64,000 bases of DNA. It comes from Catenuloplanes atrovinosus. GTDB taxonomy: Bacteria > Actinomycetota > Actinomycetes > Mycobacteriales > Micromonosporaceae. Under the pieces are notes generated by a model. That model made no database searches, was not told the DNA's origin, and worked only from the letters and a program-made list of their open reading frames with translations. The DNA lies in NCBI RefSeq assembly GCF_031458235.1, contig NZ_JAVDYB010000001.1, forward strand, positions 3,741,001 through 3,805,000. Direction: 5' to 3'. This document shows, one piece after another, positions 9,838 through 16,066 of this stretch. The position numbers were made by a program, and so were the translations under genes. The first letter of the stretch is position 1. Each line of letters opens with the position of its first letter.

Positions 9838-10377
9838 TCAGCGGCCGGTGGCTTCGAGTTGATCGAATGCCATGTTCCACCACGATTCCGGGTCGGCGAA
9901 CGCGGAGGGATCGACATTGATGAGTTCGGCGCGGATCGCGGCGGCGCGGTCCGCGCGGGCACGGCCGCCCGGGTCGTTGACGATGAGCCGCCCGAGCCGG
10001 TAGAGGAACTCGACGAATGCCGCGAGCGTGCCGTTGACCGCCTCGAAGTTCGGCGTCTCCAGGTCGAGTAGCACGACCGCGCCGGTCACCGAGTCCACGC
10101 AGAAGAGCATCTGTGGATCCTCCGGCGAACTGCCCAGCACGATGTAGATCCGCGGCCCCTCGTCGCCGATCTCAATCTTCAGTTTGGAGAACAGCCCGAT
10201 GCCCTCGACCCGGGTGTCGGCCATGAACAGAATCGGCACGGCGCCCGGCAGGACACCGGCCGGTGGCAGGGCTTCCGGCGGGAGCGGGCTCAGCACGTCG
10301 TCGAATCGCTCGAACGGGAATCGGATCAGTCCCTCGCTTCCCCAGAGGGCGGCGAGCTGGTCGTAGGTGACGGTCAT
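9838..10377 (-). CDS. SUKH-4-like immunity protein
   Basis: A 179-residue protein resembling the SUKH-4 immunity family: N-terminal LWGSEGLIRFPFERF, then GIGLFSKLKIEI, IVLGSSPEDPQMLFCVDSVTGAVVLLDLETP and a C-terminal helix with FVEFLYRLGRLI. SUKH proteins bind and neutralise cognate toxins of polymorphic toxin systems. Its start overlaps the stop of the upstream gene by 4 bp (ATGA), so it is co-translated with the other immunity gene and the nuclease. Last gene of the operon. Confidence 0.82.
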   Translation of the reverse strand: MTVTYDQLAALWGSEGLIRFPFERFDDVLSPLPPEALPPAGVLPGAVPILFMADTRVEGIGLFSKLKIEIGDEGPRIYIVLGSSPEDPQMLFCVDSVTGAVVLLDLETPNFEAVNGTLAAFVEFLYRLGRLIVNDPGGRARADRAAAIRAELINVDPSAFADPESWWNMAFDQLEATGR

Positions 10378-10916
10378 GCGCCCGGTTCCCCGTCCTCGTC
10401 ATCGGAGCCGGCCACACCCTGATCCGCGAGGAAGTTCCACCACTCGTCGTCGTCGGCACCGAGCTCGGCATATCCCGCGCCGAAGACGTAGTAGGCGAGA
10501 AACGAGTCAAGGTCGCTCGCGACTCCCTCGAACTCCTCGCGCATGTACCACTCGTCGCCGTCGGTGCGCGGGAAGTACCAGACGGCGCCGGTCTCGCGGT
10601 GCAGCAGCAGCGGCTCCTCGTGCAGCCTGCCGAAGACGAACCACTTGTCGGGTTCGTCGGAGACGCGGGTGAAGCCCGGCATATCGCCGAGGACGGACTG
10701 GAAATACCCGTACGTGCGCGTGCTGGACAGGCTGAAGGCGCCGGCCAGGATGCCGTCGGCCACCTCCAGCAGTTCCCGTACGGGCTGCGGCACATCGTCG
10801 GGGATCTTGTCGCTCGGCACGGCGCCCTGGATCTCCGCCCAGCTGAGGGTTTCGGGCTGGCCGGCCTCGAGGTCGGCGCGTAACTCCTCAATGAGTTCGC
10901 GCAGGTCCGGATTCAA
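10374..10916 (-). CDS. SMI1/KNR4 (SUKH)-family immunity protein
   Basis: A 180-residue acidic protein. SUKH-type features are PQPVRELLEVADGILAGAFSL, FTRVSDEPDKWFVFGRLHEEPLLLHRETGAVWYFP and SDLDSFLAYYVFGAGY, which follow the order of the SUKH fold (helix, sheet with ligand groove, C-terminal helix). It overlaps the nuclease stop by 4 bp and the next SUKH gene by 4 bp. The two SUKH proteins may both guard against the upstream nuclease, or one may be an orphan acquired from another toxin. Confidence 0.85.
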   Translation of the reverse strand: MNPDLRELIEELRADLEAGQPETLSWAEIQGAVPSDKIPDDVPQPVRELLEVADGILAGAFSLSSTRTYGYFQSVLGDMPGFTRVSDEPDKWFVFGRLHEEPLLLHRETGAVWYFPRTDGDEWYMREEFEGVASDLDSFLAYYVFGAGYAELGADDDEWWNFLADQGVAGSDDEDGEPGA

Positions 10917-11473
10917 TCCACTACCTCTATTCGGATGGGTGTCCCATCGGGCAGGGTCCTGATCTGCTGCCAGATCTGATTACCGATGTCCCGGTTGGTA
11001 TCAGCGTCCAACAACCGTAGATTACTGGCGTCGTCCGCACCCCCCAGCTGCAACTCCCACACATGATCGGGGTCGAGGGTGTCCAGCTTGTCGGTGAGCT
11101 TCCGGGACGTCTCCTTGTCGTGCGGCCAGTACTTCTTCCAGATCGCCTCCCGCACCCGCTGCTTGTACGCCTTGGTGATCGCATCGTTCCGCGCGACCGG
11201 GTTGGCCTGCTTGAACAGCTTGCCGTCGTCGCTGAGCCTCTGCAGTGCGCGCATCTTGCGGTCGAACGGGCCCTGCTTGTACCCGGCCTTGCGCTGAACC
11301 TTGATCGTGACCTCGGGCAGGTTGTTGTTCCGGGTCACCGGCGGCGCGGGCGGTTTACGCGGCTTGGGCGGCTTCGCCGCCGCCTCCACGGCCTTGGTGA
11401 CGAGCGTGCCAGCCTTCGTCGGCTTCTGCGCACCGCCGCGCGCCTTCGAGCCCTTCGGAGCGCTGCTACGCAT
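10913..11473 (-). CDS. HNH/endonuclease VII-type nuclease toxin domain
   Basis: A 186-residue very basic protein. Residues 1-50 are a Lys/Pro/Ala-rich linker; the C-terminal half holds the nuclease signature DHVWELQLGGADDASNLRLL followed by NRDIGNQIWQQI, the H-(x)-ELQxGG-x(5)-N-x(6)-N order of treble-clef nuclease toxins. The presumed metal/catalytic histidine is the H of LDPDHV. The ATG at 11473 lies inside the last codons of the upstream carrier gene (8-bp overlap), in a different frame. In most homologous systems carrier and toxin are one polypeptide; here they are two. SUKH immunity genes follow directly, supporting toxin identity. It would degrade DNA in target or competitor cells. Confidence 0.82.
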   Translation of the reverse strand: MRSSAPKGSKARGGAQKPTKAGTLVTKAVEAAAKPPKPRKPPAPPVTRNNNLPEVTIKVQRKAGYKQGPFDRKMRALQRLSDDGKLFKQANPVARNDAITKAYKQRVREAIWKKYWPHDKETSRKLTDKLDTLDPDHVWELQLGGADDASNLRLLDADTNRDIGNQIWQQIRTLPDGTPIRIEVVD

Positions 11474-11960
11474 TGAGCAGCTCCTGCAGGACCTGATCGA
11501 TGAGCAGACCGACGATCTCCCGCGTGATCATCTGGAAGATCGGGATCTCCAGCAGCGACGCACCGAAGGTGACAGCCGCGGTCGCGATGGCCTGGGCGAC
11601 CTGAAAGACTAGGATCGCCAGCTGGACGATCACCTGAATCTTCAATGCGAGCACGATCGCGGCGCAGGCGATCAGGCCGGTGCCGATCAGCATGGCCGCC
11701 TGCGAGTAGTTCGGCAGCTGGCCGGGACCGCTGTCGGGGTCCGTCCACCACTTCTGGAACGCCTGCATCGACTCGCCGCGATGCTGCGACCAGACGGCAG
11801 TCGCGGCCGCGCCGGCCTCGCCGGACGCGCCGGCGACCACACCGGAGAAGTCCATCCAGGCCTGGCCCATCTCGAACAGCTTCTCCTCGTCGGCCTCCGG
11901 CCATGACAGGCCGATCCACCCGAGCGCGGTGATGAGTTCGCCAGGTAGCTGAAGTCCCAT
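11466..11960 (-). CDS. WXG100-like N-terminal carrier of a type VII toxin
   Basis: A 164-residue helical protein: N-terminal ELITALGWIGLSWPEADEEK, WMDFSGVVAGASGEAGAAA, AFQKWWTD (WxW-type helix-turn region) and a long hydrophobic pair of helices AAMLIGTGLIACAAIVLALK and VIVQLAILVFQVAQAIATAA. This matches the WXG100-like domain found at the N-terminus of CpnT-type and other ESX-exported polymorphic toxins. It ends LLIDQVLQELLNA-stop, exactly where the Pro/Lys linker of the nuclease begins in another frame. It probably escorts the nuclease through a type VII system; no ESX core genes are in the window. Confidence 0.8.
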   Translation of the reverse strand: MGLQLPGELITALGWIGLSWPEADEEKLFEMGQAWMDFSGVVAGASGEAGAAATAVWSQHRGESMQAFQKWWTDPDSGPGQLPNYSQAAMLIGTGLIACAAIVLALKIQVIVQLAILVFQVAQAIATAAVTFGASLLEIPIFQMITREIVGLLIDQVLQELLNA

Positions 11961-11964
11961 GCGC

Positions 11965-12288
11965 TCAGCCCAGCATTCCCTGGATGCCCCGCATCGCGTT
12001 GGCGGCGTCTTGCTCGACCTGCTCGAAGTTGTCCGCCATCTGCGTCAGGTCACTACCCGCCTCGCCGATCTCCTCGGCGGCCAGGCCGATACAGTCCAAC
12101 ACCCAGGCCGAGGCCGCCGTGTACGCCATCCCGATCAGTGAACCGATGTCGTCGGCACCCCATGGCTCCCCGTAGCCCTCCATCCGGGCCTCGAAGGCCT
12201 CCAATTGATCGATGAAGCGCCGGCCGGCGTCGATCACCTGGTCGCCACCGGCACGCAGCTGGGCGGGTTCGACCTCGAAACCGCTCAC
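11965..12288 (-). CDS. EspC/WXG100-like small secreted protein
   Basis: A 107-residue helical hairpin protein: MSGFEVEPAQLRAGGDQV, a central WGADDIGSLIG turn and a second helix ending GMLG. The length, the W-G-x-DD turn and the position fit the ESX-associated EspC-like family. It overlaps the upstream YbaB-like gene by 4 bp and lies 4 bp from the carrier gene. Probably a partner that forms a helical heterodimer with the carrier for export. Confidence 0.78.
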   Translation of the reverse strand: MSGFEVEPAQLRAGGDQVIDAGRRFIDQLEAFEARMEGYGEPWGADDIGSLIGMAYTAASAWVLDCIGLAAEEIGEAGSDLTQMADNFEQVEQDAANAMRGIQGMLG

Positions 12289-12701
12289 CGGGAACCCCCT
12301 CCGGCCATCCGCTGCTGTGCCTCGGTCAGCGTCTGCAGGAACGCGCTGAGACGAGGAACCGCCGTATCGCGTACCTGCTCCAGCTGTTCGGCCAGTTGCG
12401 AGAGATCTCCCGGCGCAGGGACCTGCGCCGTGCCACGCATCGAGTCGATCGCCGCGTTCACCGCCGCGATGACCCGATCACCGACCTCCGCCGAGCCGAG
12501 CCGCATGACCCGCGGGTCCAGGACCAGCGACTCCAATCGGCCGTCAGCGCCGAACTCGGCACGGACCTGCCCATCCTCGGACTCGCCGATCCGGCGTAGG
12601 CGTGCCGTCTCCTCGTCCTCGGGCTCTGCGCCGGTGGCGCGTAGCGCGCCCACCGTAGCGTCCAGCATCCGAGCGAACTCCCCGCTCGCCGGCCCACTCA
12701 T
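12285..12701 (-). CDS. YbaB/EbfC-family protein of the type VII toxin operon
   Basis: 138 residues from the ATG at 12701; another ATG lies two codons upstream (12707). The ribosome site GGGAGGG (12711-12717) is 9 bp from the 12701 start and only 3 bp from the other. The pattern GQVRAEFGADGRLESLVLDPRVM, then VIAAVNAAI and coiled-coil helices before and after, is the YbaB/EbfC fold. In actinobacteria these proteins commonly precede EspC/WXG100 genes; their role there (chaperone or DNA binding) is unsettled. First strongly supported gene of the operon. Confidence 0.78.
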   Translation of the reverse strand: MSGPASGEFARMLDATVGALRATGAEPEDEETARLRRIGESEDGQVRAEFGADGRLESLVLDPRVMRLGSAEVGDRVIAAVNAAIDSMRGTAQVPAPGDLSQLAEQLEQVRDTAVPRLSAFLQTLTEAQQRMAGGGSR

Positions 12702-12882
12702 CGACATACGCCCTCCCGACGGCATGCAAGACACCGCAGAGCGTAGTCAGGACGAGCAACGCCACCCCAGCGCACACACCCCGGGGACGCCTCGCCGTCA
12801 ATATCGAACGCTCGATCAGCGGGTCCTCCGGGTTTCGCGGCGTCAAGGCTCCAGGCGGATCACCGTCGATGGGGTCCGACAT
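12544..12882 (-). CDS. Possible small single-pass membrane protein
   Basis: An open frame of 112 residues beginning MSDPIDGDPPGALTPRNPED with one convincing membrane segment (GVCAGVALLVLTTLCGVLHA) and then an Arg-rich tail. The tail overlaps the YbaB-like gene by about 160 bp in another frame, so only the first 65 residues look natural; the gene may be frameshifted or have lost its stop. No good ribosome site. Included because of its position at the head of the toxin operon. Confidence 0.35.
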   Translation of the reverse strand: MSDPIDGDPPGALTPRNPEDPLIERSILTARRPRGVCAGVALLVLTTLCGVLHAVGRAYVDEWAGERGVRSDAGRYGGRATRHRRRARGRGDGTPTPDRRVRGWAGPCRVRR

Positions 12883-13202: not shown

Positions 13203-14408
13203 CTAGGACCACGACGCCGACTGCCGCAGCCGCACCGTGTCCACGCCGAGGTCGTGCAGCCAGCGCACCGCCGCCGACTCGGCGTCGTCCAGCGCCGCGG
13301 CCAGCACGTGCGTGGTGCCGATGTCCGAATGCCCGGCCGCCCGGGCCAGCTCGCCCGCCCGGTCCAGCGCGTCGATCACCCGGCGGCCCCATACCGGGTC
13401 GCCGGGACGGCCGCCGCTCCACAGTCGCCGCGCGGTCTCCTCCGGGCCGAGCACGTCGCCGGGCTCGGCGCCGTCCGCGGGCTCCGGCGCGGCGGGCAGC
13501 CCGGCGGCGCGCAGCAGCTCGCCACCCCGGTTGTGCGCCCGGAACCGCTCGGCCAGCCGGACGCCGCCCGCCGCCAACTGGGCGTCCAGGCTGAGCACGG
13601 CGAGCAGCAGCGCCTCGGTGGTCACCCGGTCGTGGCCGGCCCGAACCGCCTGGCGCAGCACCTCACTCTCCAGGTTCGGCAGGACCGGGCCGCCCCAACG
13701 TGGATCACGACCGACCCGCCGGGCGACGAAGCCGGTGAGCAGCCGCAGCGGCGCCGGCAACGGCGGGTCCAGCGCCTGCAGCGGGGTGAGCATGCCCAGC
13801 ATCGGCGTGTACGGCTCCACGGCGCTGCCGGGTGCGGACCGGACCGCCCGGGCGATGCCGGGCAGGTCGGCCCCGGCCGCGGCGGCCCAGGCGGTCAGCT
13901 CCGGGTCGGGGTGCCGCAGCGCCGCGGCGGCCAGCACCCCGATCCCGATCCAGCCACCGTCGCCGGCCTGCGCCGCGGCCTCGGCCAGCGCCGTGCGCAG
14001 CCCCGCCGACCAGACCGGGTCCCCGCCCGCGTCGGCGTGGGCCCGGTCCCGGCCGGACAGGTTGCGCAGCACCCACCACCGGGCCTCCCGCAGCGACGCG
14101 GCCCCCGGTCCGTGGGCGACGTCGACCGCCCGCCCGGAGTCCGCACCGCCCGCTGCAGGTTGTCTCACCGCAGCCCCAGGCCGCTCGGCTGGGCCGGCGG
14201 ACTGCCCGGTGGAAGCGTCAGCGCCGAGAGCGTCGGCGGTGAGGCCGGGCAGCCGGTCGCGGAGATCGGCGTGCTCCTTCGCGATCACGGCGAGCAGCAG
14301 GCCGGTTGTCACGGCCGGCCGGCCCCGAACCAGGGCCGCGCGCCAGGCGGCCGCCAATGCCTCGGAACTCGGCAGGTCCGGCTCCGGGCCGAATGGTGCG
14401 TCTCCCAT
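13203..14408 (-). CDS. Clp-N (ClpR) double-domain protein without ATPase
   Basis: A 401-residue protein built of Clp N-terminal repeats and lacking AAA+ motifs. The C-terminal repeat is clearest: ALDRAGELARAAGHSDIGTT, HVLAAALDDAESAAVRWLHD, LGVDTVRLRQ, with a preceding half ESEVLRQAVRAGHDRVTTEALLLAVL. The N-terminal half is more diverged. Such domains bind substrates or adaptors in ClpA/ClpC; stand-alone versions act as adaptors or are uncharacterised. Start at 14408 (MGDAPFG) has only a weak purine-rich ribosome site. Divergent from the MFS exporter gene. Confidence 0.72.
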   Translation of the reverse strand: MGDAPFGPEPDLPSSEALAAAWRAALVRGRPAVTTGLLLAVIAKEHADLRDRLPGLTADALGADASTGQSAGPAERPGAAVRQPAAGGADSGRAVDVAHGPGAASLREARWWVLRNLSGRDRAHADAGGDPVWSAGLRTALAEAAAQAGDGGWIGIGVLAAAALRHPDPELTAWAAAAGADLPGIARAVRSAPGSAVEPYTPMLGMLTPLQALDPPLPAPLRLLTGFVARRVGRDPRWGGPVLPNLESEVLRQAVRAGHDRVTTEALLLAVLSLDAQLAAGGVRLAERFRAHNRGGELLRAAGLPAAPEPADGAEPGDVLGPEETARRLWSGGRPGDPVWGRRVIDALDRAGELARAAGHSDIGTTHVLAAALDDAESAAVRWLHDLGVDTVRLRQSASWS

Positions 14409-14707
14409 CGGAGTTTCTCTTTCGCCGTGCACCGATTGTCGGTCGCGTAGCCCCACCACGAACCTACCGCCTTGGCCGCTCCCGACCAGCCAAAACCGTC
14501 GCGGCCGGCACGACGGACCCTCCGAGAGGATGACGAGTCGACCCTGCCTCGTCGCAAGGTCGCGGCACACCTCGAACTGCCCAGGCGAGACTCACTGTCC
14601 GGATCTCCGGCCGAGCGTGCGGAGTGGGTGGCGGGCGGCAATTTCGGCGAGGCCGGGTTCGTTCCGGTTATCCTGCGTCGGCAGTCGATCCGCAGTGGGG
14701 AGTTGGG

Positions 14708-14764
14708 ATGCGCCTCTTCAAGGTCACGGTCACCGCTTCGCCGCGAGAGCACACCGCGCGTTAG
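14708..14764 (+). CDS. Candidate 18-codon leader peptide of the MFS exporter
   Basis: The frame encodes MRLFKVTVTASPREHTAR then TAG. A strong ribosome site GGGGAG (14697-14702) sits 5 bp before its ATG, better than most genes here. The stop is 96 bp before the exporter's TTG start. Ten bases inside this ORF (14732-14741) are exactly complementary to 14810-14819 in the downstream leader, so translation of the ORF would change the fold of the mRNA. Probably a regulatory peptide of a ribosome-mediated attenuator rather than a functional protein. Confidence 0.55.
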   Translation: MRLFKVTVTASPREHTAR

Positions 14765-14860
14765 TCGGTCCACCGTCGGGCTCCGGCCCACGGTGTGGTG
14801 CTCCTCGCCGCGAAGCGGTCGCTCACGCGACGACCGTTTCCCCTTGCTCGAGGAGCTATT
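14732..14860 (+). promoter_or_regulatory. Attenuator-type 5' leader with SD-sequestering helix
   Basis: Three sets of pairings can be read. GCTCCTCG at 14800-14807 is the exact complement of CGAGGAGC at 14849-14856, which contains the exporter's Shine-Dalgarno. Inside that, 14813-14821 pairs with 14831-14839 (9 bp with one G-U). Competing with both, 14810-14819 pairs perfectly over 10 bp with 14732-14741 inside the leader ORF. A separate hairpin is at 14771-14795. Mutually exclusive helices plus a well-started short ORF are the layout of translational attenuators of resistance genes. Confidence 0.55.
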
Positions 14861-16066
14861 TTGCGTGCCCTTTTCTCCGCGCGTCTCGGCGCGGACTTCA
14901 CCAGACTCTGGACCGCCGCCGCGGTGTCCAACATCGGAGACGGCATCACCATGGCGGCCGGCCCGCTGCTGATCTTGTCCCTCACCACCGACCCGGCCCT
15001 CGTCGGCGGCGCCGTCTTCGTCCAACAACTACCCTGGCTACTGTTCGCATTGATCAGCGGCGCCTACGTCGACCGGCTCGACCGCCGCAAACTGGTCGTC
15101 ACGGTCAATACCTTGCGCGCGGTGGCGCTCGCCGCGCTGACCTTCGCCGTCGCCGCCGACATCCTCACCGTCGCCATGATCTACACGGTGTTCTTCCTCC
15201 TCGGTACCGGGGAAACGTTGGCCGACACCGCCTCCGGCGCGTTCCTGCCCGCCATCGTGGCACCGGACCGGCTGGCCACCGCCAACGCCCGGCTGATGGC
15301 CACCTTCACCATCGCCAACCAGTTCGTGGCCAAGCCGCTGGGTGCGTGGCTATTCGTGATCGCCGCCGCCGTACCGTTCGGCGTCAACGCGATGACCTTC
15401 GCCGTGGCCGCGGCGCTGATGGCGACGATCCGGCCGATCCCCGCGCAGCCGTCCGCACCACGTCGGGGCCTGCATGCGGAGATCACCGACGGTGTCCGCT
15501 GGCTCTGGGAACACCGCCTGCTGCGCACGCTCGCCGTGAGCACCGGGCTGGCGAACGTCGCATTCTGCGCCGCTTTCGCCACTCTGGTGCTCTACGCCCG
15601 GCAACGGCTCGGCCTGTCCGACGTCGGCTTCGGCTTCCTGCTGACCACCTTCGCCGTCGGTGGGCTGCTCGGCACCGTACTCGCGCCGAGGCTGCTACGC
15701 ATTGTCGGGGCCTGCACCCTGCTGCGCGCCGGCCTCCTCGTCGAGGGCATCACCCACACCACCCTGGCGATCACCACGACGCCGCTCGTTGCCGCCACAA
15801 TCCTGATCGTTTTTGGGATACACACCATGGTCTGGGGCGTCATCGTGGTGACCCTGCGCCAACGCATGGTGCCCGAGAGCCTGCTCGGCCGGGTCGGCAG
15901 CGCCTACTCGCTGCTCGATGTCGGCGGCGCTGCCCTCGGCTCGCTCCTCGGCGCAACCCTCGCCCACCTCTGGGGCCTCACCACACCATTCTGGATCGCC
16001 GCCGCCGTGATGGCACTCCTCGCTACCGCCACCTGGCGGCCACTGCGTCAAGCATCAGCCGCCTGA
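14861..16066 (+). CDS. MFS exporter (MFS_3/EntS-like, macrolide-efflux-type)
   Basis: A 401-residue twelve-helix transporter. It begins with LGADFTRLWTAAAVSNIGDG, has motif A GAYVDRLDRRKLV, and VPESLLGRVGSAYSLLDVGGAALGSLLGA in the second half, all typical of the MFS_3 group that contains EntS and Mef-type pumps. The TTG start at 14861 was chosen because AGGAG sits exactly 5 bp upstream; ATG-like extension to 14795 is also open but would run through the regulatory leader. Substrate unknown; the attenuator-like leader suggests induction by a ribosome-targeting compound. Confidence 0.88.
   Translation: MRALFSARLGADFTRLWTAAAVSNIGDGITMAAGPLLILSLTTDPALVGGAVFVQQLPWLLFALISGAYVDRLDRRKLVVTVNTLRAVALAALTFAVAADILTVAMIYTVFFLLGTGETLADTASGAFLPAIVAPDRLATANARLMATFTIANQFVAKPLGAWLFVIAAAVPFGVNAMTFAVAAALMATIRPIPAQPSAPRRGLHAEITDGVRWLWEHRLLRTLAVSTGLANVAFCAAFATLVLYARQRLGLSDVGFGFLLTTFAVGGLLGTVLAPRLLRIVGACTLLRAGLLVEGITHTTLAITTTPLVAATILIVFGIHTMVWGVIVVTLRQRMVPESLLGRVGSAYSLLDVGGAALGSLLGATLAHLWGLTTPFWIAAAVMALLATATWRPLRQASAA

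Follow-up and report, generated by a model that had tools for sequence, protein, structure and literature searches.

The leader ORF and the MFS exporter of Catenuloplanes atrovinosus

The window analyzed here is a stretch of 64,000 nt of Catenuloplanes atrovinosus DNA (GCF_031458235.1, NZ_JAVDYB010000001.1, positions 3,741,001-3,805,000, forward strand), to whose numbering all coordinates refer. The host, a soil actinomycete of the family Micromonosporaceae, has a genome of 8.9 Mb in one contig. A predicted MFS exporter is encoded behind a short leader ORF, and RNA strands that can pair in competing ways lie in and between the two (Table 1). An original prediction had placed an 18-codon ORF with its own ribosome site before the exporter, and both elements were recovered when the sequence was read (GGGGAG at 14697-14702, followed by ATG at 14708). 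A search of NCBIfam with the leader peptide gave no match. No NCBIfam exporter family, Tap, Tet(V) and Mef(A) among them, was matched by the exporter above its curated cut-off, and because all matches are sub-threshold the substrate of the exporter cannot be named. The closest named relative found is Winogradskya consettensis, with an exporter that is 87% identical, and the TTG start is used in 57 of 59 exporter relatives. Divergently from the exporter, the minus strand encodes a protein with a C-terminal Clp_N domain (13203-14405). A second minus-strand locus (9838-12734) contains a WXG100-like gene (PF25547), a YbaB-like gene, an ORF without a Pfam match (10913-11473) and two SUKH-4 immunity genes in tandem; it resembles a locus of secreted polymorphic toxin and immunity genes.

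Table 1. Features of the leader and exporter region (window coordinates)
Feature	Coordinates	Strand	Sequence or extent	Remarks
Putative -10 element, promoter before the leader	14669..14674	+	TATCCT	TANNNT conserved
Leader Shine-Dalgarno (SD)	14697..14702	+	GGGGAG	read from sequence; purine-rich site at matching place in aligned relatives
Leader ORF	14708..14764	+	MRLFKVTVTASPREHTAR	18 codons plus TAG; ATG 14708-14710, TAG 14762-14764
Strand D	14713..14716	+	CCTC	leader codons 2-3; partner is GAGG within the exporter SD when the RNA carries no ribosome
P5 strand	14726..14731	+	ACGGTC	alternative partner of 14832-14837; 90% of cells paired
Strand A	14734..14752	+		leader codons 9-15; forms anti-sequestor A:B with strand B
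Strand B	14798..14820	+	GTGCTCCTCGCCGCGAAGCGGTC	common to A:B and sequestor B:C, mutually exclusive folds
Hairpin P3	14812..14840	+	14812-14820 with 14832-14840	upper sequestor; inner 8 pairs covary
Strand C	14849..14856	+	CGAGGAGC	holds exporter SD; pairs with 14800-14807 (GCTCCTCG)
MFS exporter (predicted)	14861..16066	+	401 aa, TTG start at 14861	Pfam MFS_3 4.8e-29, MFS_1 7.1e-29

In 59 of 61 relatives the leader ATG is preceded, at a distance of 31-56 nt, by a TANNNT element. It corresponds to TAnnnT, the consensus of -10 elements established by mapping in S. lividans (PMC8079986); no TTGACA-type -35 was seen at the putative promoter ahead of the leader. Transcription starting downstream of 14764 had been named as a point that would speak against the original prediction, and such a main start is unlikely because the TANNNT element precedes the leader ATG.

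Conservation of the leader and its competing helices

Orthologues were collected as exporter matches in genome contigs and in 251 genomes of the family, with 65 matching at E <= 1e-90, and 59 leaders were aligned, among them some from Nonomuraea, Actinomadura, Rhizohabitans and Nocardia. Every row of this alignment retained the leader ATG, indels in the conserved part of the ORF were multiples of three, and 33 of the 59 leaders had exactly 18 codons (range 11-25, as the stop position varies), statistics that are not fully independent because leader picking favored an ATG, an SD and resemblance to the peptide of the window. The purine-rich site of the relatives is likewise partly built in, as the set was selected for having an SD. 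This bias does not extend to the way in which the ATG and the downstream strands line up column by column. At codons 4, 5 and 9 the third position is near-constant and positions 1 and 2 change, a pattern fitting a translated high-GC codon set, although these residues of the peptide are not conserved. The leader ORF is probably translated. The early stops of some relatives would still put a terminating ribosome over strand A.

The 186-nt fold reached -92.9 kcal/mol compared with -73.95 +/- 4.44 for shuffled sequences (z = -4.27; none of the 200 shuffles went so low), and strands A, B and C, which compete for pairing, recur in the 59 aligned leaders. Two complementarities of the original prediction were verified from the sequence, as GCTCCTCG (14800-14807) is the exact reverse complement of CGAGGAGC (14849-14856), and GCGAAGCGGT (14810-14819) that of ACCGCTTCGC (14732-14741). 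The second, a 10-bp match, holds as such, but the helix is longer than had been claimed, and A:B joins 14734-14752 to 14798-14817 through 18 bp with small bulges. The alternative pairing postulated inside the sequestering structure was present in the fold as P3. In the 59 leaders, 86.9% of the alignment cells were paired in A:B (40-58% in slid versions), with changes on both sides at 12 of the 18 pairs, and the inner 8 pairs of P3 were paired in 95.6%. The native covariation was reached by 0/500 shuffles for A:B and for P3 and by 44/500 for P5, where it is weak; these shuffles ignore relatedness and the figures are not probabilities. Bases 14812-14817 take part in both A:B and P3, so that two helices that cannot coexist are both maintained through strand B. 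B:C was paired in 93.8% of cells compared with 54% or less when slid, and it can hardly covary because strand C is the near-invariant SD. A further SD partner, beyond those listed in the original prediction, lies in leader codons 2-3 (14713-14716). This D:C pairing is part of the MFE of the free RNA, and 81% of cells are paired; covariation was not seen, and Salinispora has lost the pairing. No Rfam match was obtained at gathering score in the window, nor did 14600-14900 give one at E values up to 5.

The hairpin P3 is missing from five relatives (L039-L041, L043 and L047), which retain both A:B and B:C. This speaks against the idea that P3 or B:C is a terminator and A:B its antiterminator, as in the transcriptional attenuators of lmrC, vmlR and are5sc. 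The topology does match that of drug-responsive actinomycete ABCF attenuators (PMC12421871), and TTTC follows P3. Nevertheless, the lock ends on the SD across the whole alignment, and a search for intrinsic terminators with a U-tract gave no such site in 14560-14900. Transcriptional attenuation is considered quite unlikely, and would have to rely on the U-less terminators that actinobacteria may use or on Rho-dependent termination. In L039-L041 and L043 the leader itself bears a copy of the SD block, GAGGAGC, which mimics strand C.

Ten further leaders (L067, L068, L084 and L102-L108) precede exporters of about 57-60% identity and form a second class. Their leader is different, such as MRIAPLGTVLVSASPLGTAVS, and the A/B/C wiring is the same as in class 1, being composed of CGCTTCG in the leader, CCTCGCCGCGAAGCGAT in the middle and the SD-bearing ATCGCTTCCGAGG. 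The locked SD of class 2 is that of a second small ORF, such as MFPEIPSGRPAAPGPRTPVRWPA; the TGA of this ORF and the start codon of the exporter overlap in ATGA, which suggests translational coupling. The recurrence of the same leader design in class 2 also speaks against a switch that would operate independently of the leader, such as a metabolite riboswitch or a thermosensor, the short ORF being incidental. RNA pairing explains much of the conservation, given that no third-position excess of change was observed, which such a switch would accommodate. It is very unlikely, however, in view of the invariant ATG, the in-frame indels, the near-constant third positions where the amino acid varies and the failure of any Rfam riboswitch family to match.

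Judged from these alignments, the putative switch is conserved in about 70 relatives. The original prediction had hinged on conservation of the ORF and of the pairings in orthologues, and both are conserved, with A:B and P3 covarying. Most of the more distant MFS relatives (41-55% identity) do not have such a leader. Covariance-model scans of 396 genomes phylum-wide and 299 order-wide returned matches only before this exporter or what is left of it (L078, L079 and L080); under the strict filters used, with few candidates scored, the leader may also stand before other target genes.

Predicted effect of ribosome position on the exporter SD

Constrained folding, with a ribosome footprint masked at each leader codon in turn, was used to obtain the energy needed to open the exporter SD together with its start codon. 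The calculation was applied to 67 leaders (59 of class 1 and 8 of class 2) with three footprint sizes, for which the pattern was stable. The mean opening cost in class 1 was 11.2 kcal/mol for the free RNA, 6.8-8.6 kcal/mol with the ribosome on codons 1-7 and 10.7-12.2 kcal/mol on codons 8-18. The corresponding values for class 2 were 17.5 kcal/mol (free), 8.1-9.5 kcal/mol (codons 1-7) and 11.2-14.6 kcal/mol (later codons), and those for the leader of the window were 10.7 kcal/mol (free), 5.2-7.4 kcal/mol (codons 1-7), 7.2-7.9 kcal/mol (codons 8-10) and 12.2 kcal/mol (codon 13). The lowest cost over codons 3-6 was below both the free RNA and the late mean in 59/59 class 1 and 8/8 class 2 leaders, a comparison that takes the best early value and favors early positions, although the means agree. 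Shuffling of the codon order (30 sequences) reduced the late-minus-early difference from 4.7 +/- 2.4 to 0.3 +/- 2.7 kcal/mol, and 6.7% of the codon-shuffled leaders reached the native median difference.

In the free RNA the SD was paired to the leader with a probability of 0.61 in class 1 and 0.98 in class 2. In class 1 a ribosome on codons 8-10 moved the pairing of the SD to the zone that holds strand B (0.86-0.89), and in the early-stalled states SD pairing to this zone was 0.4-0.65. These early states still hold structure worth about 7 kcal/mol, so the ON state probably requires that A:B is the first helix to form during co-transcriptional folding. The raw probability of an unpaired SD separates the states poorly, at 0.13-0.23 for the free RNA and codons 1-7 and about 0.03-0.10 for codons 8-16; the opening cost is the better measure, and all energies are equilibrium estimates. 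The original prediction had left undecided which state is on, and from the masked and unmasked folding the ON state is proposed to be the one with a ribosome on codons 1-7. According to this model, the exporter is most likely switched on by an early stall and stays off when the leader is translated freely or not at all.

Probable translational attenuation and its relation to known systems

The conserved ORF and pairings, the covariation of A:B and P3 and the upstream promoter element support the translational attenuation layout of the original prediction, and the leader and exporter mRNA is probably a ribosome-mediated translational attenuator. Leader ORF and exporter would be carried on one transcript, in which strand B could pair either with strand A, leaving the exporter SD free, or with strand C together with the arm upstream of it, locking the SD. 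In mRNA without a ribosome, strand D would also lock the SD. A ribosome running through the leader would melt strand A, B would capture C and the exporter would be off. A ribosome parked on codons 1-7, as in drug-arrested initiation or early elongation, would cover strand D and leave A:B intact, so that the TTG start would become usable. Drugs presumably cause this early stall and thereby induction, and the exporter would be expected to remove the drug responsible. The strictly position-selective form, in which the exporter is off without a ribosome (D:C) or during run-through (B:C) and on only with a ribosome halted at codons 1-7, is proposed tentatively, its chances being somewhat short of even.

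Close relatives of such a device are ErmC and ErmB, where a leader ORF and rearranging helices hold the SD of the resistance gene in a lock that a stalled ribosome opens (PMC5118997). Both have a leader ORF that carries an SD of its own on the transcript, and mutually exclusive helices, one of which locks the downstream SD. In contrast to ErmC/ErmB, strand B swaps between leader and SD, the stall would have to precede strand A, the gene is an actinomycete exporter and there is no conserved arrest motif, since codons 2-6 are variable and none is common to both classes. An ErmC-type device, in which a drug-specific arrest peptide would halt the ribosome at one defined codon, is nonetheless worth weighing. 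Many class 1 leaders open with MRL, similar to the beginning of macrolide arrest peptides of the MRLR kind, and T7 V8 and A10 S11 are well conserved. However, T-V and A-S fall within strands P5 and A, the residues at codons 4, 5 and 9 change freely, Q or L is frequent at codon 2 and the class 2 peptides differ at codons 2-6, which makes an arrest peptide unlikely.

The uORF toiL of E. coli pairs with the topAI SD, and a halted ribosome, including one at the start codon, unmasks this SD in response to several drug classes, stalls anywhere being reported as effective (PMC12121999). Strand D may play this role of a uORF pairing with the SD here; unlike in toiL-topAI, a second lock (B:C) should close once the ribosome passes codon 7. 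In the actinobacterial ABCF genes are5sc, tiaA and lmrC, lincosamides, streptogramin A and pleuromutilins stall ribosomes at the uORF start codon, and these attenuators are described as terminator/antiterminator devices (PMC12421871). Actinomycete hosts and the proposed sensing of an early stall are shared with them, but in the leader studied here it is the SD that is locked, the search for a terminator was negative and the gene encodes an MFS exporter. The amino-acid attenuators trpL, leuL and ilvL have a similar topology, in that after an early stall the 5' strand pairs with the shared strand, so that the antisequestor forms, and run-through yields the inhibitory hairpin; the leader studied here would instead act on translation of a transporter. 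An amino-acid-starvation attenuator or reinitiation coupling from leader to exporter is highly improbable, as the leader lacks the runs of repeated regulatory codons and as the exporter SD lies far, 43-90 nt, beyond the leader stop. Since neither the arrest motif of ErmC nor the terminator of the ABCF attenuators was found, the leader is placed outside the named families, and ribosome-mediated translational attenuation is the kind of control to which it would belong.

This leader was not found described in a literature search within open-licence papers. If the model holds, it is a conserved switch by which actinomycetes, antibiotic producers among them, adjust translation of an exporter to drugs, where the described cases found in the same lineage act mainly on transcription, and it would mark an uncharacterized exporter as a probable antibiotic resistance determinant. 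If the position-selective reading is true, the leader would respond, without an arrest peptide, to any drug that arrests ribosomes at initiation or early in elongation and would represent a previously undescribed actinomycete RNA family with two sequence classes. Inducing inhibitors could be predicted from where they halt ribosomes, which would make the leader a possible reporter for early-acting ribosome inhibitors.

Several copies of the module are decaying. A truncated, decayed exporter stands behind an intact leader in L079, the leader has lost its ATG and the exporter is gone in L080, and the exporter of L078/L017 carries an internal deletion. These copies suggest repeated loss of the module.
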